A DNA stretch of 64,000 bases, taken from the NCBI RefSeq assembly GCF_001831495.1, contig NZ_CP017689.1:124001-188000 (forward strand), in the 5' to 3' direction. The position numbers and the translations under genes are program-made. The DNA is from Thalassotalea crassostreae. GTDB taxonomy: Bacteria > Pseudomonadota > Gammaproteobacteria > Enterobacterales > Alteromonadaceae. Shown piece after piece: positions 1,062 through 42,801 of this stretch (the first letter of the stretch is position 1; every line of letters begins with the position of its first letter). Under the pieces are notes generated by a model. The model did no database searches. It saw only the letters and a program-made list of their open reading frames with translations, and was not told where the DNA came from.

Positions 1062-2321
1062 CTACTTACGCTTCATAGCGTCGAAGAATTCATCATTCGT
1101 TTTCGTCATTGCTAACTTATCGATAAGGAATTCCATTGCATCAATTTCACCCATCTCATGAACGATTTTACGTAATACCCACTGTCTTTGCAGTTCAGCT
1201 GGTTTAGTAAGAAGTTCTTCACGACGAGTACCACTGCGGTTGAAGTGAATAGCAGGGAATACACGTTTCTCAGCAATTTTGCGTGAAAGGTGTAATTCCA
1301 TATTACCGGTACCTTTAAATTCTTCGTAGATTACTTCGTCCATCTTAGAACCCGTATCTACTAGCGCGGTAGCGATAATTGTTAAGCTACCACCTTCTTC
1401 AATGTTACGAGCAGCACCAAAGAAACGTTTTGGACGATGCAATGCATTGGCATCAACACCACCAGTTAATATTTTACCCGATGAAGGAATCACTGTGTTG
1501 TATGCTCGAGCTAAACGAGTAATCGAGTCGAGTAAGATAACCACGTCTTTTTTATGCTCAGTTAAGCGTTTTGCTTTTTCGATAACCATTTCTGCCACTT
1601 GAACGTGGCGACTTGCTGGTTCATCAAACGTTGAGGCAACCACTTCACCTTTAACAAGGCGTTGCATCTCGGTAACTTCCTCAGGACGTTCATCGATAAG
1701 TAATACCATCAGCTCACAATCAGGGTGATTATGGGCAATACTTTGAGCGATGTTTTGAAGTAATAATGTTTTACCTGCTTTAGGTGGAGCAACGATAAGA
1801 CCTCGTTGACCTTTACCAATTGGAGATGCTAAATCGAGAACTCGAGCAGTAATGTCTTCAGTACTTCCGTTACCACGTTCCATGGTTAAGCGTTCGTTTG
1901 GATGAACAGGAGTTAAGTTTTCGAATAAAATCTTGTTGCGAGAGTTCTCTGGGCGATCAAAGTTAACTTCATTAACCTTTAATAGAGCAAAATAACGTTC
2001 ACCGTCTTTTGGTGGGCGAATCTTACCAAATACCGTATCACCTGTGCGTAAACTAAAGCGTCTAATTTGACTCGGAGAAACATAAATATCATCTGGACCA
2101 GCCAAGAATGAAGAATCTGCGCTTCGTAGGAAACCAAAACCATCTTGAAGTATTTCAAGTACACCACCACCGAAAATATCTTCACCGCCCTTGGCATGGG
2201 CTTTTAATATGGCGAATATTACGTCTTGTTTACGGTTGCGAGCCAAATGGTCAAGCTTCATCGATTCGGCTAGTTTTAACAGTTCACCGATAGATTTATC
2301 TTTGAGTTCGATTAGATTCAT
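1062..2321 (-). CDS. rho: Transcription termination factor Rho
   Basis: Rho is a hexameric RNA-dependent ATPase and translocase that terminates transcription. The 419-residue length equals that of E. coli Rho. The N-terminal helical and cold-shock-like RNA-binding domain (about residues 1-125, with GFGFLRS) is followed by the RecA-like motor. Walker A is PPKAGKT (about residues 179-185), Walker B is VVILLDSI, and the Q-loop contains [15 protein letters not shown]. It stands alone between its terminator and trxA, in the trxA-rho neighbourhood seen in many gammaproteobacteria. About 180 nt lie between the trxA-side terminator and the start, enough for a leader; Rho autoregulates in E. coli through such a leader, but no specific signal was identified here. 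Confidence 0.98.
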
Positions 2322-2500
2322 ATTGAGAGGTCTTGTGCTATTTATATTATTGCTTAGTTATAGTGTCTGATACCGGTATTGTGCCGCAACAGAACGAAAA
2401 GAATTTGAATAAGGTATGTATGATTGTTTAAGTTAGCATTAAAATCGCAAATGGTAAAGTTAGCAGCGAAATTAGATGCTATTACAGGAGTTTTATATGA

Positions 2501-2526
2501 AAAAGGCTAACCAATGTTAGCCTTTT
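2501..2526 (-). terminator. Intrinsic terminator of trxA
   Basis: A perfect 10-bp stem, AAAAGGCTAA / TTAGCCTTTT, with a 6-nt loop lies just past the trxA stop. On the minus strand the stem ends in a T-run. It separates trxA from rho, so rho needs its own promoter or read-through. Confidence 0.8.
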
Positions 2527-2535
2527 CAATAATTA

Positions 2536-2862
<327 letters not shown>

Positions 2863-3044
2863 TTTTTTCTCCGTTAATTGGCATTTTGCCGATAAGTTGC
2901 AATTTTTAATCGATCTACGTTGGTTTTGCAAGTGCGAAATTAGCTATATTTAATAACTTATTTAAATATAAGTAAATTATTCGCAATTATATTTTGGGTT
3001 AAACGAGATAATACTTAATCGATTAGGCATTAGGTGTTATTCTA

Positions 3045-4343
3045 ATGGCTATGAAAAAAACACATTTAACCGAAACAAAATTTTCTGACCTAGGGCTATC
3101 ACCAAAAGTGGTTGCCGGTTTAGAAAACATGGGCTTTCACCATTGTACGTCAATCCAAGCTAAATCATTACCTATTTTATTAGGCGGTAAAGATATTGCT
3201 GGGCAAGCGCAAACCGGTGAAGGCAAAACTATCGCTTTTCTAGCCGCAACATTTGATTTGTTGTTGCGAAAACCAACACCAGAAGGCTCTGAAAAAGAGC
3301 GCAAACAACCAAGAGCTATTATTATGGCGCCGACTCGTGAGTTGGCGATTCAAATCCATAACGATGCGAAAGAAATGGCTGCAAGTACTGGCTTACGTCT
3401 TGGTGTTGTATATGGGGGCGAAGGTTATGAAAGTCAACGCCAAACCCTAGAAAATGGTGTAGATATTTTAATTGGCACCTGTGGCCGTTTAATTGACTAC
3501 CTTAAACAGGGCGTTTACAACCTAAATAATATTGATGCTGTGGTTCTAGATGAAGCCGATCGCATGTTCGATTTAGGTTTTATTAAAGATATTCGTTATA
3601 TGTTCCGTCGCATGCCAGCGGCAAATGAACGTTTAAATATGCTTTATTCAGCAACATTATCATTCCGCGTCAAAGAATTAGCTTTTGAACATATGAATGA
3701 TCCGGTAAGTGTTGAAGTGGCGCCAGAGCAAAAGACTAATGTTCGCATCAGTGAAGAATTGTTTTATCCATCGAATGTGGAAAAAATGAATTTGCTGCAA
3801 ACCATTATTGAAGAAGAATGGCCTGATAAAGCCATTATCTTTGCCAACACCAAACATGTTTGTGAACGTGTTTATGCGCATCTGCAAGCAGATAAACATC
3901 GTGTTGGTTTATTAACCGGCGATGTACCACAAAATAAACGAATCAAAATACTAGATTCATTTACTCAAGGTCATTTAGATTTTTTAGTGGCAACCGATGT
4001 TGCGGCTCGTGGTCTACATATTCCAGCAGTTACTCATGTATTTAACTATGATTTACCTGATGATTGTGAAGATTACGTACATCGTATTGGCCGTACTGGA
4101 CGTGCTGGTGCGTCGGGACATGCTATCAGTTTCGCTTGTGAAGATTACGCGATGAACTTACCGCCTATCGAAGAATATATTGAGCATAGCTTACCAGTGA
4201 GTAAATATGATTCGGACGCGTTGATAACAGATTTCCCTAAGCCGAAACCGAAACCGCGTCGTCATAATTCGAATAATCGTGGTGGCCAAGGTGGTCGTCG
4301 CAACGATAATTACAATAAACAGAGATCACATCACAAACGATAG
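3045..4343 (+). CDS. rhlB: DEAD-box ATP-dependent RNA helicase RhlB
   Basis: RhlB unwinds RNA in the RNA degradosome in enterobacteria. The 432-residue protein begins like E. coli RhlB ([12 protein letters not shown]). It has the Q motif (TSIQAKSLP), motif [19 protein letters not shown] (in [11 protein letters not shown]), SAT, and the C-terminal motif [10 protein letters not shown]. The tail is basic and rich in Arg, Gly and Asn (about residues 395-432), a typical RNA-binding extension. Motif I has Glu where E. coli RhlB has Thr, a tolerated position. The gppA start follows ten bases after the stop, so the two are probably co-transcribed, as in E. coli. Confidence 0.96.
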
Positions 4344-34531: not shown

Positions 34532-34635
34532 CAGATATAAGGTGGCGTTTAATATGAAGTTTGTATAGTTGGACTTTATTTGATAACGTTGTCAGTTATG
34601 GTTGGAAATATTAAGTTAATTTGGTAGAGAACCCT

Positions 34636-37545
34636 GTGAACTATTTTAAGCATTTTTTTGTTATATTATTTTCGCTGAGCTGCGTAATTTCTTGTGGTGG
34701 CGAAGGTTCTGCGGATAATTATGATGTTGAACCGTTGCCGATAAAAGAGCCTGTTCCTGAGCCAGAACCAGAACCAGAGCCAGAGCCAGAACCTGAGCCT
34801 GAGCCTGGGCCAGAACCTGAGCCAGAAAAGCCTGGACCAACCGCAGAAGATCTGATTGTTGTCGAAACTCAAGAAAACGGTAATGTGATTTTTCAGGATG
34901 ACATTGTTCTTGGCAGTAAGCCGCAAGGTAATACTGAATTGTTCAACCCAGAAATTTCAAATAATATTATCAACGATCGTTGCGTTGCATGTCATTCACC
35001 AGGGAATGTAGCGCAACGTACCGATTTAGTTTTCAGTAATACTATCGATTACCAATCAGCATTCGACCTGTATGCGGTTAATTCAAGCACTAGATTATTA
35101 AATAAAGTTAGTAAAACAGTTTCACATAATGGTGGTGAAGTTGTTGCGAAAGATTCAAGTGAATACCAATTACTCGTTGATTATATCGCCACCATAGAGT
35201 TAGTTGAGACTTGGTCGGCATTAGACATCGATACAGATGGCGATGGCATTTTTGATGCGCTTGACCCAGATGATGATGGCGATGGTATTAATGACGCAGA
35301 TGATGAATATCCAAAGACTAATTTAACTTTGGAAGTACCTGAAGAACCAGACCACAATGACACACTATATGCATTGATTAATAATGACATTGTATTAAGT
35401 AAATGTGTGGTTTGTCATAATTCATCAGGGCAAGCGGGTGCAACCAATCTTATTTTTAAAGATCAAACTCATGCAGATAATGAAACAGAGAATATAAATT
35501 CATTAATTTCCTTTCTTTCCGATAACAGTAAAGCTGAATTATTATTACAAAAAGTACAAGGGTTGCTTAATCACACTGGTGGAAAATTATTCTCTCCAGG
35601 AAGTGCAGAATATGGTTATTTGGAAGATTTAATTAGCTCATTAGGATTAACTGATAAGTCCAACTCATATCCAACTAATTTCAGCAAAGAACTAAATAGC
35701 AATACTTATCGCCGCGCCTCAATTATCCTTTCTGGTGAAGTTCCGAGTAAAGCCGAGCTAGCAAGGCAAGATAGCTTGTCAGCAGCCGAATTTGAAAATG
35801 AAATTATTAATTTAATGCAAGGCGATGGATTTAAAGAGTTTATTAAAAATGGCGCTAATGATCAGTTATTGGTCCGAGCTATTAATGTAAATGCATTTCA
35901 AAACGTGCATCAAGTGATGCGCCATTGGTATCCAAAATATGGTGAAATGTATGTTAACTCATTAAATAGTGGTGGCAGTAAAGGTGGCTTTAGAAATACG
36001 GTCGCCGAAGAATTAGCTGAAGCTCCTCTTGAGTTGATTAACCATGTGGTGCAGAACAATAAGCCATATAGTGAAATTCTAACAGCTGATTACGTAATGG
36101 TGTCTAAGTTAACTGCGCAGATATTTAAAACCAACCTAACTCCATCCACTGGTCAGTTTTTAGTAGCGAATGCCAACAATGGCCAGCAAATTAAAAATAA
36201 TAACAATAAAAAGCCAGTAGATTGGGATAAAGGAACAATCCTTACCGGATCAAATAAGGATAATGATGATATTTATACACCTACAGGAACCAATGTATCA
36301 TTACCTAATGCTGGTGTTTTAACTAACTACAGTTATCTAAATAAATACTTTTCTACCGCTACAAATCGTAATCGAATGCGTTCACGATGGACCAATTATT
36401 TTTTCTTAGGCTTTGATATTGAAAATTCGTCTCCTCGATTGGTTGATGGTGATTTAGACTTTGATTACCCAACTTTAGAAAACCCGAATTGTGTTGTTTG
36501 CCACGAAGTGATGGACCCAGTTGCTGGTACCTTCCAAAATTTTGGCGATGATGGATTATATCGTGATGGGTATAATGGTGAACATGCTTTGGATAATGGT
36601 TACCGCCTAAATAAAAGTGGTCTATATCAATTTAGAGAAGGCGACCTATGGTATCGAGATATGTTACCAGCGGGCTACGCTGAAGAAGTGGTTTCGACTC
36701 CGGAGACATCTCTTGCTTGGCTTGCTGAAAAAATAACGTCTGATGACAGGTTTGCCTCAGCAGCAGTGCAGTTTTGGTGGCCAGCGATTTTTGGTGAAGA
36801 TGTCTTAAAGCATGATCAAGATGATCGCATTTGGGCACAGCAACAGTTTATAAAGTCAGTCGCTGAAGATTTTTCTGAGCACCAGAATTTAAAACGCATG
36901 TTAGCAAAATTAATTCTCTCTGATTGGTTTAGAGCAAAAAGCCGTAACCAGGGTGTTAATGATCAAGACTTAGTGATTTATCGAGGTGGCAAGCGTTTAT
37001 TAACACCTGAAGAAATGTCAGCGAAAACTAAATCGCTCACTGGTTTTGCTTTAGAATATAACACCACATATCAAGCATTCTATGGCGGTATTGACTCAGA
37101 GCAGGTTACTAAAAGAGTGCGCAGAATAAGCGCCCCGCTATTTCAAGTTGCTAAGTTACAAGCAAACCAATACAGCTGTTTCATTGCAGGTAAAGATTTT
37201 GAAAAAAATAAAGCGAATCGAAGATTATTCAGCGATGTTAATTTGTCCGACACCTCAGAAGGTTTAATTAAAACGCAATTAGTGACCTTATATGAACGTT
37301 TGCTTGGTGAGGAATATAACGTAAATTCAGCGGAAATAAACTCAGCATATCAGCTATTTGATGATGCAAGAAATGCAGTTATCGGTAGTAATGAAACCAA
37401 TATATTAAAATCCTATGAGCGTTGCGATGGCTTTGACGGCAAAATGGTCAACAATAAAACCAATGGCGATCCTCAGCAAACTTTTAGTGCTTGGAAGGTC
37501 GTGTTAACAGCACTACTTTCTGACTATTCATATTTGTATGAATAA
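34636..37545 (+). CDS. Lipoprotein with three CxxCH sites, planctomycete-cytochrome-like
   Basis: The GTG at 34636 gives 969 residues; AGAG lies upstream, and a TTG at 34621 is a weaker choice. The signal ends in a lipobox (VISC, Cys20). An (EP)n linker follows (about residues 38-65), then CVACH (116-120), a calcium-type thrombospondin-3 repeat (DTDGDGIFDALDPDDDGDG, about 199-217), CVVCH (257-261) and, far downstream, CVVCHEVMDPVAG (from 619). The last resembles the DUF1588-type CHxxxDPxG motif of planctomycete-like cytochromes; such proteins are typically encoded next to DUF1501 proteins, as here. I infer an exported, membrane-anchored c-type heme protein. The exact family and substrate are not established. 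Confidence 0.7.
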   Translation: MNYFKHFFVILFSLSCVISCGGEGSADNYDVEPLPIKEPVPEPEPEPEPEPEPEPEPGPEPEPEKPGPTAEDLIVVETQENGNVIFQDDIVLGSKPQGNTELFNPEISNNIINDRCVACHSPGNVAQRTDLVFSNTIDYQSAFDLYAVNSSTRLLNKVSKTVSHNGGEVVAKDSSEYQLLVDYIATIELVETWSALDIDTDGDGIFDALDPDDDGDGINDADDEYPKTNLTLEVPEEPDHNDTLYALINNDIVLSKCVVCHNSSGQAGATNLIFKDQTHADNETENINSLISFLSDNSKAELLLQKVQGLLNHTGGKLFSPGSAEYGYLEDLISSLGLTDKSNSYPTNFSKELNSNTYRRASIILSGEVPSKAELARQDSLSAAEFENEIINLMQGDGFKEFIKNGANDQLLVRAINVNAFQNVHQVMRHWYPKYGEMYVNSLNSGGSKGGFRNTVAEELAEAPLELINHVVQNNKPYSEILTADYVMVSKLTAQIFKTNLTPSTGQFLVANANNGQQIKNNNNKKPVDWDKGTILTGSNKDNDDIYTPTGTNVSLPNAGVLTNYSYLNKYFSTATNRNRMRSRWTNYFFLGFDIENSSPRLVDGDLDFDYPTLENPNCVVCHEVMDPVAGTFQNFGDDGLYRDGYNGEHALDNGYRLNKSGLYQFREGDLWYRDMLPAGYAEEVVSTPETSLAWLAEKITSDDRFASAAVQFWWPAIFGEDVLKHDQDDRIWAQQQFIKSVAEDFSEHQNLKRMLAKLILSDWFRAKSRNQGVNDQDLVIYRGGKRLLTPEEMSAKTKSLTGFALEYNTTYQAFYGGIDSEQVTKRVRRISAPLFQVAKLQANQYSCFIAGKDFEKNKANRRLFSDVNLSDTSEGLIKTQLVTLYERLLGEEYNVNSAEINSAYQLFDDARNAVIGSNETNILKSYERCDGFDGKMVNNKTNGDPQQTFSAWKVVLTALLSDYSYLYE

Positions 37546-37554
37546 GGAATGACT

Positions 37555-38850
37555 ATGAATAGACGAAACTTTTTAAAATACAGTACAGCTGCCTTAGCAA
37601 GCAATTCACTCTTGTCTAATGTGACTTGGGCGGCTGACCCCGGTTATACCGGTGAGTTTGTTTTACAAGTGCAAGTATATGCAGCTTGGGATGTTGCAAG
37701 TTTTTGTGACCCTAAGCAAGATGTTAATATTAATTCGTGGGCAGCGACAGAGTCGATACAAACAGCCGGAAATTTGCAATATGCGCCGTTTGCCAATAAT
37801 AGTCAATTATTTGATAACCATCATGATAAAATGTTGGTGGTCAATGGCGTAAATTCTTTTACCAATTCGCACAGTGCCGGCCGCCTATATTCTTATACTG
37901 GATATAACGGTGGTGGTTATCCTTCATTGTCGGCATTATTTGCCGCTGCCAATAGTGCAAGTGTACCAGTGCCGGTAGTTTATAATGGTGGCGATTTCTT
38001 TACTCAAGGTCTTGTTGCAGCAAGTAAGCTTGGTAATGACCCGAGTACTTTTTTACAAATACTTGAAAATGAAACGCCAACTACCAGTACTAAGCCCTTT
38101 TTAAAACAACAACAGTACTCGTTAATCGACCAATTTAATCAGCGTCGATATAATATTAAAGCGGGAGCTGAACACAGCTTACCAATGGATAAAGTATCCA
38201 TTACTGATTACGGAAAGTCGATTCAACCGTCTGCAGCGTTTGCTAATTTCAAGCCTTTATTAGAGCAAGTGGAGCAATCGGAGTCTTCAGGTGCTTACGA
38301 ACGTGAATACGATTTTAATAATAAGCTTTTAAAACAAGCTAAGTTTTCACTATTATCGTTTGCTTCTGGTTTATCTGTAGCCGCAGATATTGTCGCTAGA
38401 GGTTTTGATAGCCATAGTGACCACGATAACAAACAGGCGGGTGCTTTATCTGATTTGACCTCAACCCTGGACTATATTTGGGTGCTAGCTGAAGAATTAG
38501 GTATAGCAGATAGATTAAATGTTTATGTGGCTTCAGACTTTGGTCGTACGCCTTTTTATAATAATGGTACTCCACCAGGAAAAGACCATTGGGCTGTTGG
38601 TAGTACGCTAATAATGAAAAAGAATGCACCATGGGCGGGAAAAGCAGTTGGTTCAACGGATAATAAGCTTAATGCGCGCAAGGTGAATAGAGCGAAACCA
38701 ACAACAAGTAATGACAATAATGGCGTAATATTGGAGCCTAAACATGTTATGCAAGCAATGCGTAAACAACTAGGTATTGATCAATCTGATGCTGCATTAG
38801 CGTTTCCGCTAAAGGTTGATTTTGGTGATGAAGTAGACTTATTCGCATAA
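37555..38850 (+). CDS. DUF1501 family protein with Tat signal
   Basis: The 431-residue protein begins with a twin-arginine signal (NRRNFLKYSTAALASNSLL, cleavage after TWA), so it should be folded in the cytoplasm and exported by TatABC. The body shows DUF1501 features: VVNGVNSFTNSHSAGRLYSYTG, RGFDSHSDHDNKQ and VYVASDFGRTPFYNNGTPPGKDHW, an alkaline-phosphatase/sulfatase-like fold with His/Asp metal-type residues. The ATG at 37555 has AGGA six bases upstream; ATG 37549 is too near it. The stop of the CxxCH lipoprotein lies nine bases before. The function of the family is unknown. Confidence 0.88.
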   Translation: MNRRNFLKYSTAALASNSLLSNVTWAADPGYTGEFVLQVQVYAAWDVASFCDPKQDVNINSWAATESIQTAGNLQYAPFANNSQLFDNHHDKMLVVNGVNSFTNSHSAGRLYSYTGYNGGGYPSLSALFAAANSASVPVPVVYNGGDFFTQGLVAASKLGNDPSTFLQILENETPTTSTKPFLKQQQYSLIDQFNQRRYNIKAGAEHSLPMDKVSITDYGKSIQPSAAFANFKPLLEQVEQSESSGAYEREYDFNNKLLKQAKFSLLSFASGLSVAADIVARGFDSHSDHDNKQAGALSDLTSTLDYIWVLAEELGIADRLNVYVASDFGRTPFYNNGTPPGKDHWAVGSTLIMKKNAPWAGKAVGSTDNKLNARKVNRAKPTTSNDNNGVILEPKHVMQAMRKQLGIDQSDAALAFPLKVDFGDEVDLFA

Positions 38851-38912
38851 GTTGAATTGCGCTCAATCAGTTAATTAAAATAAAAATTTAAACAGCTTTC
38901 TAGGTTAGAATA

Positions 38913-39140
38913 ATGATAATAAAAAGACCAAATTGTAAAGTATTAACCATCATCTTAATGGTAATGTGCAGCAGTGCTTGTACTACGGTGCAACCGTGGG
39001 AAAGAGGTAATTTAGCCAAAAATGAAATGGCTTTAGACAGTGACCCTATGCAGTCGTCATTTGCCAATCACGTTTATAACTCGAAAGAATCTAGTTCAGG
39101 TTCAAGTAAAGGTGCCGGCGGCGGCTGTGGGTGCAATTAA
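38913..39140 (+). CDS. DUF4266 small lipoprotein with C-terminal CGCN
   Basis: A 75-residue lipoprotein with lipobox SSAC (Cys23), the conserved VQPWERGNLAKNEMALDSDP core, a flexible Ser/Gly-rich stretch, and the terminal GGGCGCN (Cys72 and Cys74). DUF4266 proteins are, to my knowledge, encoded beside DUF3570 proteins. The paired C-terminal cysteines could hold a metal or a redox disulfide; that is inference. The stop overlaps the DUF3570 start by one base (TAATG). Confidence 0.85.
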   Translation: MIIKRPNCKVLTIILMVMCSSACTTVQPWERGNLAKNEMALDSDPMQSSFANHVYNSKESSSGSSKGAGGGCGCN

Positions 39141-40348
39141 TGAAACTCGCAGATTCTAAAAAAGCACTCAGTGCCCTTGCCGCAACCGCAGCAATTTTAC
39201 CTAATATCGCCATTGCAGACTCGCCCTCAGAATCTATTGTTTTTGGCTACAAACATCATAAATATAGTGAAGCTGATGCCAGTAAAAGTGCAACCGGCAC
39301 AAATAGTGTTGGTCGATACGACATCGACGTGAACCAATTTCAATTGCTATTGCCGATTGGTAGTAAATATCAAGTTAACTTTGACTACCAAACCGAAACA
39401 ATGAGTGGCGCATCGCCTTGGTATACCTATAAGAGCAATGATGGCAAAGTTCATCAAGCAATGAGTGGTGCCTCCATTAAGGACACCCGTGATGATATTA
39501 AAGTATCCTTATCTACCTATTCCGATAACTCAACATTAACAGTTGGTATTGCTAATTCAAGTGAGGATGATTATACCGGTAATAGTGTTTCTGCAGCGTA
39601 TAGCCATACTAGTGAAGATAAAATGCAAACTTATGCAATCAGTGCTGACTACTCGGATGATACGGTAGATCCAGTTGATAAAGATGCATTTGAACCTGCA
39701 CGTGTTGAAGAGCAGGATAAGCAATCATTTTCAACGATGTTGTCAATGACACAAACAATTAACCGAAATATGATTTGGCAAATGAGTGGCGGCTTTATTT
39801 ATAAAGAAGGTTATTTGTCTGATCCATATAAATTGGTTGATATCGTAGACCCACTGGATACAACGCAACGTATTTTAATTGGCGATCAACGTCCAGAAGA
39901 CAGAACTGCTTGGTTGTTAACAAGTCGAACAAGAAATTATATTGAAAGTGCGCAAGCAGCCTTGCATATTGATTATCGGTACTATTCAGATAATTGGGAT
40001 TTAAATTCGCATACATTAGAAGCTAAGTGGATTCAAAACATTGCCGAAGATTGGCGCATCATTCCTTCTGTAAGGTATTACACGCAATCTGCAACAGACT
40101 TTTACCAAACCTATTATGAAAGTGAACGCCGACAGAAATACTATTCTACCGATTACCGTTTGTCTTCATATGGCGCAATCACTCTAGGCTTAAAAGTTGA
40201 AACTAAAATTGATAATTGGTTAGTAAACCTTGGCTATGAACAATATCGTTCAGATGGTAGCTATGGCTTGGAAAGTGCCCATCAGGATAACCCCGGATTA
40301 GTCGATTTTGATATTTTGAGTTTTGGTTTCTACTATACTTTTGATTAA
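39140..40348 (+). CDS. DUF3570 outer-membrane protein
   Basis: The ATG at 39140 gives 402 residues with a signal peptide ending about IAIADS. The mature protein is full of alternating beta strands and Tyr/Asp-rich turns (VNQFQLLLPIGSKYQVNFDY) and ends in an aromatic strand (SFGFYYTFD), typical of a barrel. Two MSGAS motifs occur at residues 88-92 (ETMSGASPWY) and 108-112 (HQAMSGASIKD). They resemble the Dxx(S/T)GA(T/S) sequence flavinylated by ApbE, and an ApbE gene is two genes downstream. It overlaps DUF4266 by one base. Confidence 0.88.
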   Translation: MKLADSKKALSALAATAAILPNIAIADSPSESIVFGYKHHKYSEADASKSATGTNSVGRYDIDVNQFQLLLPIGSKYQVNFDYQTETMSGASPWYTYKSNDGKVHQAMSGASIKDTRDDIKVSLSTYSDNSTLTVGIANSSEDDYTGNSVSAAYSHTSEDKMQTYAISADYSDDTVDPVDKDAFEPARVEEQDKQSFSTMLSMTQTINRNMIWQMSGGFIYKEGYLSDPYKLVDIVDPLDTTQRILIGDQRPEDRTAWLLTSRTRNYIESAQAALHIDYRYYSDNWDLNSHTLEAKWIQNIAEDWRIIPSVRYYTQSATDFYQTYYESERRQKYYSTDYRLSSYGAITLGLKVETKIDNWLVNLGYEQYRSDGSYGLESAHQDNPGLVDFDILSFGFYYTFD

Positions 40349-40351
40349 TTT

Positions 40352-40840
40352 ATGAAAAAATATTTGCTCATTGCAGTGCTTCTTATCGTTACGGGTTTTG
40401 TGCTGATAAAACAACAAGATTTGACCACGGTTCCTGAGTTTAACGTTATTGAAGTTATCGATGGTGATACACTTTTAATTAGCGCTAAACCTAAGGATAG
40501 AATTGTTGAGTTAGCTTATATCGATGCGCCGGAGTTAGATCAGCCGTTTGGTTTAGATGCAAAAAATTGGCTGTTAGAGCAGATTGAAGATAATGACTCA
40601 AAAGTAGAACTAAGGTTCGTTCAAAAGAGCGATAAAGCATTAGTTTTGGCTAAAAGCGTCAATTTAAATCGGAGTCTTGTGGTATTAGGATATGTCTGGC
40701 TTGATGTCGACAAGAAAACTACCGACGTTAAATACGCGCAAGATTTTAAACGTGTACAGAAAGCGAAAAAAGGATTATGGTCTTTACCCGACTATAAACG
40801 TATTCCTCCATGGATTTGGCGGGAGGATTCGCTACAGTAG
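40352..40840 (+). CDS. Staphylococcal-nuclease-fold protein lacking catalytic arginines
   Basis: A 162-residue protein with an N-terminal signal anchor (LLIAVLLIVTGFVLI) and a thermonuclease (SNase) fold: VIEVIDGDTLLIS, IVELAYIDAPELDQPFG, SLVVLGYVWLD, KGLWSLPDYKRIPPWIWR. The metal-site acids (Asp37, Asp39, Asp58) and Glu61 are kept, but the two catalytic arginines of the model enzyme (R35, R87) align to Glu53 and Val98. It is therefore probably not an active nuclease of the usual type. It starts three bases after the DUF3570 stop. Confidence 0.82.
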   Translation: MKKYLLIAVLLIVTGFVLIKQQDLTTVPEFNVIEVIDGDTLLISAKPKDRIVELAYIDAPELDQPFGLDAKNWLLEQIEDNDSKVELRFVQKSDKALVLAKSVNLNRSLVVLGYVWLDVDKKTTDVKYAQDFKRVQKAKKGLWSLPDYKRIPPWIWREDSLQ

Positions 40841-40853
40841 TTGAGTACCTCGA

Positions 40854-41750
40854 ATGAACATTATTAGCAAAACATTTCGATTTAAAGCTATGGGCTCTCC
40901 CTGTGAATTTCATCTTTGTAGTACAAGCGAATCAGTGCTGGAAGAAGCTTTTTCAATTGCCAAAAATGAAGTAGAACGGTTAGAAAAAAAATATTCACGT
41001 TATCAAAAAAACAGTTTGTTGAGCCAAATAAATCAACAGGCGGGAAAGAAAAAAATAGCCTTGGATGCCGAAACCATTGCGTTATTTACCTATGCGAAGC
41101 AAGCTTTCGATCTAAGTGAAGGACTATTTGATATTACTTCAGGGGTTATGGCCAATGTTTGGAATATGCACTCTACAGACAACATTGATATAAACCAAGT
41201 TGACTATTGGCTTAATTATGTTGGTTTTGAAAAAGTCGATTTTTCTCAACAATCGATTTATATTCCAGAGCAAAAAATGCAAATAGATTTAGGTGGCATT
41301 GTTAAAGAATACGCCGCAGATAGTATTGTTCGATTGCTATCAAAATTTACATCTTTAACGGGACTGATAAATCTAGGTGGTGATGTTGCTATTTTAACAA
41401 ATCACGAAACACCGAAAGTATGGCAGGTGGGTATTTCCGATCCCACTAACTCTGGCAGTGCAATCGCCAATATTCCGCTTACTTCAGGAGGCGTTGCCAC
41501 ATCCGGTGACTATGAACGCTATATAATGATTGATAATAAGCGATTTTCGCACATTATAAGCCCTAAAACTGGCTACCCTGTTTCTGGGCTATTCAGTGTC
41601 AGTGTGTGGCAATCTAGTTGCGTTTTAGCTGGTACTTTGGCAACTATTGCGATGTTAAAAGAACAACAGGGCTGCACTTGGTTAAAAGAATTAGGCATTC
41701 CTTATTTAGCGATAAATCATGATTATAGTGTGAGTACGAATCAAGTTTAG
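40854..41750 (+). CDS. apbE: FAD:protein FMN transferase (ApbE family)
   Basis: ApbE covalently attaches FMN from FAD to Thr/Ser of target proteins. The 298-residue protein has the family motifs FKAMGSPCEF, SRYQKNSLLSQIN, SEGLFDITSG, QIDLGGIVKEYAAD, GLINLGGDVAIL and HIISPKTGYPVSG. No signal peptide or lipobox is visible, and a stop codon four codons upstream rules out an extension, so this form would be cytoplasmic, unlike the common exported ApbE. No clear Shine-Dalgarno; translation may be coupled. It ends the operon that starts with the CxxCH lipoprotein. Confidence 0.92.
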   Translation: MNIISKTFRFKAMGSPCEFHLCSTSESVLEEAFSIAKNEVERLEKKYSRYQKNSLLSQINQQAGKKKIALDAETIALFTYAKQAFDLSEGLFDITSGVMANVWNMHSTDNIDINQVDYWLNYVGFEKVDFSQQSIYIPEQKMQIDLGGIVKEYAADSIVRLLSKFTSLTGLINLGGDVAILTNHETPKVWQVGISDPTNSGSAIANIPLTSGGVATSGDYERYIMIDNKRFSHIISPKTGYPVSGLFSVSVWQSSCVLAGTLATIAMLKEQQGCTWLKELGIPYLAINHDYSVSTNQV

Positions 41751-41865: not shown

Positions 41866-42801
41866 CTATTGGGTAAACTCTAGGCTACCGAAATCGACAT
41901 TGACGTCGGCACACCAAACACTAATGCCGGTTAAATCATCGAGTGTTTTGCCATTAGGCAGTGTCACTTCGAAACTCTCGTTGGTGTATACTTGACCGTT
42001 AAGCATATCGCTCATTCTAAATGCATCATCACCATTATAGTCATGATCAATAGCACCATAGATGTAAACATCTGGACCGCCGCCATCATAATTGAAGTTG
42101 CTGATAGCAATTGTACAATCATCAATAATCACCGCGTCACCAGAAACATCATGAGAAAACGTGCGAAAACTTCCTGAGTAACCAACTTTTTCATGGGTTT
42201 TAGGACAGTTAGTTATTTCATTGCCGTTGATTAAATCGATAGTGGTTTGAAAATGGTAGATCGCCTGATCTTTTGCAATTAAACTTTGATTGATTTCAGT
42301 ATTGGCGGCCAATACGTCATTTACTGCGGCTTCGAAATCTGGTGAGTCAATTAGCGCAGTAAAGCTCTCGAATAATTGATGGCTTTGCTCACTAATTTCA
42401 ATACCATTATCTGGCATGCCGTCTTTATCTAAGCTTTGTAACAAGCGAATCGTATTCACTACCGAAATATCATAAATATCTTCGGTGGAATATAGATCTA
42501 GCGGCGTGATTATTGGTGCGGTACTAACCTCAGGAAAGTCAATTGCGCCAATAGAGAAGGTGATCATTTCACCTTGTTGATAGATAAATTCACCCTCTAC
42601 ATTTGTAACGCCATTTTGACTTGCAGTTTGATAGTTTAGGCCGTGAACTTTTGCATCAAGAAATTGGCCGGTAAAGGTTTCAACCATAGTGTTTGCAGGA
42701 GAAGCGTCATTGCTACCACCAGACCCGCCGCCACAGCCAGATAAAACTATGACAAACGTCGAAATTAATATTGAATTCACATTGTTTGAAATAAGTTTCA
42801 T
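41866..42801 (-). CDS. Lipoprotein with C-terminal DM13 domain
   Basis: The 311-residue protein has a lipobox (VIVLSGCGGGSGG), a middle region with a calcium-type stretch (SLDKDGMPDNGIEIS), and a C-terminal domain with SFRTFSHDVSGDAVIIDD, IAISNFNYDGGGPDVYIYG and GISVWCADVNVDFG. This pattern, including the conserved Trp-Cys, is the DM13 domain, proposed to take part in redox or electron-transfer chemistry at the cell surface. It converges on the ApbE operon, 115 nt away. Confidence 0.8.
   Translation of the reverse strand: MKLISNNVNSILISTFVIVLSGCGGGSGGSNDASPANTMVETFTGQFLDAKVHGLNYQTASQNGVTNVEGEFIYQQGEMITFSIGAIDFPEVSTAPIITPLDLYSTEDIYDISVVNTIRLLQSLDKDGMPDNGIEISEQSHQLFESFTALIDSPDFEAAVNDVLAANTEINQSLIAKDQAIYHFQTTIDLINGNEITNCPKTHEKVGYSGSFRTFSHDVSGDAVIIDDCTIAISNFNYDGGGPDVYIYGAIDHDYNGDDAFRMSDMLNGQVYTNESFEVTLPNGKTLDDLTGISVWCADVNVDFGSLEFTQ

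Follow-up and report, generated by a model that had tools for sequence, protein, structure and literature searches.

Gene clusters in which a DUF3570 protein is encoded with a thioredoxin-like protein, DUF4266, ApbE and, in part of the cases, DsbD have been described, and the DUF3570 protein of Chlorobium luteolum is flavinylated in Escherichia coli with its ApbE at two [S/T]GA[S/T] sites, the function of these clusters being called uncertain (PMC8238504). A second described system is that of the planctomycete-type cytochromes (PSCyt) and PSD proteins of Verrucomicrobia, where PSCyt genes usually lie beside two families of unknown function, some with carbohydrate-binding modules; some bacteria have many such cytochromes and neighbouring families, whose functions are stated to be unknown (PMC5615132). 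We analysed a stretch of 64,000 nucleotides (the window) of Thalassotalea crassostreae (contig NZ_CP017689.1, positions 124,001 to 188,000), whose genome is a single contig of 3.86 Mb, and found six plus-strand genes that join parts of both systems: a cytochrome lipoprotein (LIPO), a DUF1501 protein, DUF4266, DUF3570, an SNase-like protein, and ApbE (Table 1). In our view, the chances are about even that this block encodes a conduit for electrons in the outer membrane, built from a barrel that bears flavin and the cytochrome lipoprotein. Such a conduit would work like MtrCAB-type porin-cytochrome conduits, which combine an outer-membrane barrel with a cytochrome, and like flavocytochrome c sulfide dehydrogenase (FCSD), in which flavin gives electrons to c hemes and for which sulfide is the source of electrons.

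The block resembles the DUF3570-DUF4266-thioredoxin-ApbE clusters in its two [S/T]GA[S/T] motifs, the terminal CxC of DUF4266, and the adjacent ApbE, but it has no adjacent thioredoxin or DsbD, and it adds the cytochrome lipoprotein, DUF1501, and a degenerate SNase (PMC8238504). Its LIPO-DUF1501 pair can be likened to the PSCyt genes and their neighbours in Verrucomicrobia, for which, in contrast, no flavin partner is mentioned in the accessible portions of the study (PMC5615132), and the LIPO of the window is a divergent gammaproteobacterial branch that falls below the Pfam cut-off. DUF1501 occurs three times in the full file of that paper and not in its main text, and the main text of PMC8238504 contains neither DUF1501 nor DUF1588. 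Within the open-licence literature searched, no paper besides PMC8238504 names DUF3570 or DUF4266, and no title joins a flavinylation cassette with PSCyt or DUF1501 parts; as far as this literature reaches, the coupling of a DUF3570 cassette to a planctomycete-type cytochrome pair is new. An earlier note on this DNA knew of no described function for the combination, which stands where the cassette is coupled to the cytochrome-DUF1501 pair but not for the DUF3570/DUF4266/ApbE half, which had already been published (PMC8238504).

The cytochrome pair and its flavoprotein neighbours

LIPO and DUF1501 form a fixed pair. DUF1501 lies directly 3' of LIPO in all 17 distinct loci, and a scan of the genome contigs with a DUF1501 alignment gave at least 13 loci, of which, among the matches listed, all 10 with E-values up to 4e-50 have LIPO directly upstream and three weak ones have none. 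LIPO itself is rare. Profile searches, in which at most two candidates were scored per genome, found it in 5 of 369 genomes of the class (that of the window, G422, G448, G552, and G644) and in 3 of 394 genomes of the order (that of the window, G292, and G379). Scattered occurrence in relatives had been named in advance as a sign against the electron path; the rarity is real, but where LIPO is present it stands repeatedly beside a flavin module. The LIPO of the window has a lipobox, a Pro-Glu stalk, and three CxxCH, and DUF1588 rises above the cut-off in its relatives of L155 (28.9) and L163 (39.4). LIPO proteins have a C-terminal pattern in common, (F/Y)-x-(Y/H/M)-E (window 37528-37545), with Glu at the final position in all 16 examined.

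Two of the 17 LIPO loci (L157, L161) end shortly after DUF1501, which leaves 15 with readable downstream DNA. The DUF3570 cassette adjoins seven of them (window, L138, L045, L155, L156, L163, L170), and a twin-arginine (Tat)-type FCSD flavoprotein adjoins three (L159, L160, L172). At L159, the FCSD protein gives a match to 1fcd_A with an E-value of 1e-154; its counterparts at L160 and L172 share 80% and 59% identity with the L159 protein, and cysteines 42, 161, and 337 of 1fcd, which we take to be flavin-linking and redox-active, are aligned in all three. At these loci, and in no other of the 17 LIPOs, the di-heme subunit of FCSD is fused into LIPO: the LIPO of L159 matches the di-heme subunit 3vrd_A (E 2e-40), those of L160 and L172 were found by phmmer against that of L159, and three other LIPOs give only 12-14 bits in the same kind of search. 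FCSD replaces the DUF3570 cassette at 3 of the 17 loci, and the LIPO-DUF1501 pair seems to take exchangeable flavoprotein partners. Our main reason for seeing a flavin-to-heme path in the window is that LIPO is fused to a flavoprotein-fed heme domain at some loci, and the DUF3570 cassette stands at the equivalent place elsewhere. Unlike those loci, the window block has no FCSD, and the flavin is predicted to be carried there as covalent flavin mononucleotide (FMN) on a barrel. Both types of partner would be fed by sulfur, with sulfide as the source in FCSD and, in the cassette, the dithiols that thioredoxin and DUF4266 carry. At L170 (G644, 1738-4050), a stop codon splits LIPO; after it come DUF1501, thioredoxin, DUF4266, and DUF3570, and the contig breaks off at the beginning of ApbE.

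The exchange of partners bears on two other explanations. In the first, the flow is reversed: LIPO and DUF1501 would oxidise an outside substrate and pass electrons inward via heme and FMN, with either the thiol pool or an acceptor in the periplasm as their destination. The genome evidence shows parts and no direction, and the large domains of extracellular type in relatives (FG-GAP, PA14, CBM60) point to an interaction with a substrate outside the cell, but FCSD, the alternative partner, runs from flavin to heme. The DsbD of some published DUF3570 clusters also delivers electrons outward (PMC8238504), and we regard a reversed flow as unlikely. In the second, the DUF4266 Cys-Gly-Cys tail and the flavin barrel would reduce and bind a metal, for example iron or copper, for uptake, with the cytochrome pair taking part in a metal reductase. 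In its favour, a gene for a DUF364/DUF4213 'heavy-metal chelation' protein separates DUF3570 from ApbE in one relative (L105:7662-8453); the swap with FCSD, however, indicates sulfur chemistry, and no metal transporter was recognised in the seven cassette-linked LIPO loci, most of whose flanking genes were unscanned. We judge metal handling quite unlikely.

Conservation of the block and the diversity of DUF3570 loci

The six open reading frames (ORFs) were confirmed and are tightly packed, with successive junctions from LIPO to ApbE of 3 nt, 62 nt, a 1-nt overlap, 3 nt, and 13 nt, in agreement with the layout described in the earlier note, including the 62-nt gap between DUF1501 and DUF4266. 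Its list of a three-CxxCH lipoprotein, DUF1501, DUF4266, DUF3570, a degenerate SNase, and ApbE is borne out by motifs and by Pfam (scores in bits, all over the family cut-off: DUF1501 48.7, DUF4266 80.8, DUF3570 231.7 with a cut-off of 25, SNase 31.6 with a cut-off of 21, ApbE 217.3). This inventory had the six genes right but passed over the two SGAS motifs, the absence of a thioredoxin, and an ApbE without a visible signal peptide. The comparison of the block across genomes, which had been proposed as a check, turned out in its favour: a sister species (G406, locus L138) contains all six genes in unchanged order between other neighbours, namely methionine-synthase-like and RecX/AlaS-like ORFs (read from the sequences) instead of the LrgAB and DM13 protein genes that flank it here. 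Identities between the two blocks are 71% for LIPO, 79% for DUF1501, 72% for DUF4266, 79% for DUF3570, 57% for SNase, and 72% for ApbE, and in each gene, the proportion of nonsynonymous differences (pN, 0.12-0.28) is far under that of synonymous ones (pS, 0.71-0.76, near saturation). Because the block moves as one between neighbours and is under purifying selection, chance hardly explains it. Across the genus, DUF4266 occurs in 10 of 15 genomes and the window kind of DUF1501 in 2 of 15, and the SNase is optional, being present in four of the seven cassette-linked LIPO loci (window, L138, L045, L156).

Two unrelated operons could also abut by accident (34.6-38.9 and 38.9-41.8 kb), as the widest gap, that of 62 nt, lies at the joint, and each half is found alone elsewhere. 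Yet the halves adjoin in the seven loci named above with varying gene order, the DUF3570s linked to LIPO form one clade, and the 62-nt gap has no terminator-like site, and we consider an accident very improbable. The scan found terminator-like hairpins in none of the block junctions (10 in the region against 5.9 expected), the nearest one before the gap lies inside DUF1501, and promoter-like sites are no commoner than in shuffled sequences (25 against 25.4).

The DUF3570 loci fall into three groups. DUF4266 was found in 100 of the 394 genomes of the order, and we compared 96 DUF3570s from 80 stretches around DUF4266 matches, from the genus loci, and from L155, L156, and L163, which make a sample and not a census. 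Two flavinylation motifs, both intact in the window, are present in 9 of the 96. Group A (52 loci) has neither LIPO nor an HZS_alpha lipoprotein; its loci contain thioredoxin in 42 cases, ApbE in 44, and DsbD in 6, with one motif in 50 and none intact in two. Group B, a second DUF3570 clade linked to a cytochrome (35 loci, among them L032, L038-L040, L042, L043, L047, L087, and L095), has DUF4266, a lipoprotein like that of L087, which carries HZS_alpha and PD40 domains and two CxxCH, and a thioredoxin in all 35; none of them has an ApbE gene within 7.5 kb on that strand, and the first motif is altered in 24 (SSAS in 19, SAAS in 5). L087, the sole group B locus with other neighbours scanned, has two sub-threshold outer-membrane-barrel matches. 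Group C consists of eight DUF3570s in one clade (SH-aLRT 98, in a quick tree with long end branches for L073, L155, L163, and L090 and unsure fine branching). Each of the eight has two motifs and a planctomycete-type cytochrome as its neighbour. Six of them adjoin LIPO-DUF1501 (window, L138, L045, L155, L156, L163), L090 adjoins a DUF1592/DUF1588 cytochrome with DUF1552, and L051 is head-to-head with a DUF1592/DUF1588 protein containing a GH5 cellulase domain. The ninth DUF3570 with two motifs (L073) lies outside the clade. This protein, on the minus strand of L051:1-4901, combines cytochrome c domains, GH5, and DUF1587/DUF1595/DUF1592/DUF1588, and its gene is head-to-head with a thioredoxin-DUF4266-DUF3570-ApbE cassette.

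These groups allow a role in maturation to be weighed, in which the thiol components would keep the CxxCH cysteines of LIPO reduced for heme attachment, like CcmG-type thioredoxins. The thioredoxin of the cassette belongs to the Redoxin/TlpA type and sits between DUF1501 and DUF4266 in L155 and L163, as such a role would have it. Against it, the 52 group A loci have neither type of lipoprotein, and in just one of them (L083) does any neighbour contain at least two CxxCH (either strand, 7.5 kb); moreover, the flavinylated barrel would be superfluous, and the window has no thioredoxin. We consider maturation decidedly improbable. The neighbour in L083 is a 655-residue ORF with ten CxxCH, two genes before the cassette thioredoxin.

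The proposed electron path and the points against it

The structural model shows the DUF3570 of the window as an outer-membrane-type barrel of 16 strands, in which the two SGAS motifs flank the predicted strand 3-4 loop on the long-loop side. The barrel, rather than the Tat protein or the lipoprotein, is the likely target of ApbE. DUF4266 ends in GCGCN in all 97 proteins examined; its terminal Asn and free C-terminus may matter besides the CxC.

In the electron path that we propose, ApbE would attach FMN to the serines of both DUF3570 motifs. A periplasmic dithiol relay, running from DsbD through an unlinked TlpA-like thioredoxin to lipid-anchored DUF4266 with its flexible C-terminal Cys-Gly-Cys tail, would reduce the FMNs. 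These would donate electrons one at a time to LIPO, whose hemes would lie at the cell surface, and there LIPO with DUF1501 would act on an extracellular substrate. At the weakest step, we guess at a polysaccharide-linked redox reaction because relatives bear carbohydrate-binding and cellulase domains. The SNase-like protein would be a non-catalytic accessory: at the position of Arg35, presumably a catalytic arginine, it has Glu (and L138 and L045 have an acidic residue as well), and it has a gap at that of Arg87, presumably the other. A path for electrons across the envelope, already proposed in the earlier note, remains the best reading and has gained support from comparative genomics, but the block is incomplete for it, as the usual thioredoxin is absent.

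Several observations weigh against this path. First, the surface exposure of LIPO is inferred, with FG-GAP, PA14, fibronectin, or CBM60 domains of its relatives suggesting a location outside, and for this reason our confidence in the conduit is held at an even level. The lipobox pattern is found in 6 of 13 LIPOs, the N-terminus being cut in four and the pattern not seen in three, and the PSCyt proteins of Verrucomicrobia are predicted to be periplasmic or cytoplasmic, not extracellular (PMC5615132). The LIPO of the window matches DUF1588/PSCyt3 (25.7, cut-off 27) and DUF1592 (19.1, cut-off 23.3) below the Pfam cut-offs, its structural model is moderate (pLDDT 71.8) and matched none of the known folds it was compared with, and five of the 15 readable LIPO loci (L154, L158, L162, L171, L174) have neither flavin module beside them.

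Second, the cassette ApbE is unusual. With signal peptides judged by eye, it has MGSPC at residues 13-17, no hydrophobic stretch ahead, and no visible signal peptide, and none was seen in the 19 aligned cassette ApbEs, window included; the second ApbE of the genome has a lipoprotein-type N-terminus. Of the published triad, it retains Ser217 and His233, and Gly260 stands in place of the Asp, which is Asp285 in Vibrio cholerae and Asp301 in FmnB (PMC12052999). Gly is found there in 19 of 19 aligned cassette ApbEs, with alignments to FmnB and TM1553 in agreement, and in all of the best 120 of 7347 homologues (the window's own among them), which have Cys17 in 120, Cys256 in 113, and no hydrophobic N-terminus in 119; one homologue, at 72%, is from Thalassomonas sp. 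M1454. The subfamily would either be active without the triad Asp or modify its target differently, and given the loss of Asp and the lack of a visible signal peptide, the action of ApbE on an exported barrel is not assured. ApbEs without signal serve cytosolic targets (PMC12052999), and one acting on an outer-membrane barrel would mean flavin loading before export.

Third, the long-loop side of such barrels is usually extracellular. The modelled motif loop is predicted to be on that side, and the access of periplasmic thiols is then unexplained.

Fourth, the block contains neither a thioredoxin-like gene nor DsbD, the sole DsbD_TM match of the genome being at G000:C1:295981-296634; DsbD is present in only part of the published clusters (PMC8238504). 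A cassette-like thioredoxin lies about 0.5 Mb away (G000:C1:673959-674423; 189 bits, the runner-up among nine Redoxin loci and the window ORFs having 80), and homologues of it occur in all 15 genus genomes, including five without DUF4266. Because a thioredoxin adjoins only 1 of 11 DUF4266 loci of the genus (L141; L140 ends at a contig edge), a separate location of this gene is usual for the genus and nothing particular to this block; the cassettes of L045, L155, L156, L163, and L170 do contain it. At L124:9097-9927, a 105-residue ORF with a lipoprotein-like start precedes a cassette-like thioredoxin, and 108-109-residue ORFs adjoin it in L148, L150, and L151.

A more detailed form of the path, which we consider possible if doubtful, is an outer-membrane thiol-to-heme wire in which the signal-less ApbE with its altered site would load two FMNs on the cytosolic barrel precursor. 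The Cys-Gly-Cys tail of DUF4266 would then enter the 16-strand lumen and reduce them, and the wire would feed a planctomycete-type surface cytochrome and DUF1501.

Layout of the locus and significance

The coordinates are collected in Table 1. LIPO has an alternative TTG start (ORF 34621-37545), and the TAT_signal Pfam match of DUF1501 (17.4) is below its cut-off of 22.7. The genome has one match each for DUF4266, DUF3570, and DsbD_TM, two for ApbE, and four for DUF1501 over the family cut-off, that of the window included. A minus-strand lipoprotein with a DM13 'electron transfer' domain (41866-42801) is convergent with ApbE.

Table 1. Features of the six-gene block, in positions of the window
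Feature	Position	Strand	Remark
LIPO cytochrome lipoprotein	34636..37545	+	GTG start giving lipobox; divergent DUF1588/DUF1592 (planctomycete-type cytochrome, PSCyt) family
CxxCH 1 of LIPO	34981..34995	+	present in L138 too
CxxCH 2 of LIPO	35404..35418	+	family-wide
CxxCH 3 of LIPO	36490..36504	+	family-wide
DUF1501 protein, twin-arginine-type signal MNRRNFLK	37549..38850	+	Pfam
DUF4266 small lipoprotein, lipobox SSAC	38913..39140	+	Pfam
DUF4266 C-terminus GCGCN	39123..39137	+	
DUF3570, predicted 16-strand outer-membrane beta-barrel, predicted ApbE substrate	39140..40348	+	
DUF3570 flavinylation motif 1, SGAS, residues 89-92	39404..39415	+	
DUF3570 flavinylation motif 2, SGAS, residues 109-112	39464..39475	+	
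SNase-like, membrane-anchored, without catalytic arginines	40352..40840	+	
ApbE, subfamily without visible signal peptide	40854..41750	+	Ser217 and His233 kept, Gly260 for Asp, conserved Cys17 and Cys256

Our analysis raises a clear puzzle, in that the ApbE dedicated to an outer-membrane protein has no visible export signal. DUF3570-based electron transfer, the function of which is uncertain according to its discoverers (PMC8238504), gains a likely output, and one branch of the PSCyt cytochromes gains concrete redox partners, a flavinylated barrel or FCSD, which makes the question of their functions testable. As a whole, the block suggests a wire that takes electrons from envelope thiols outward.

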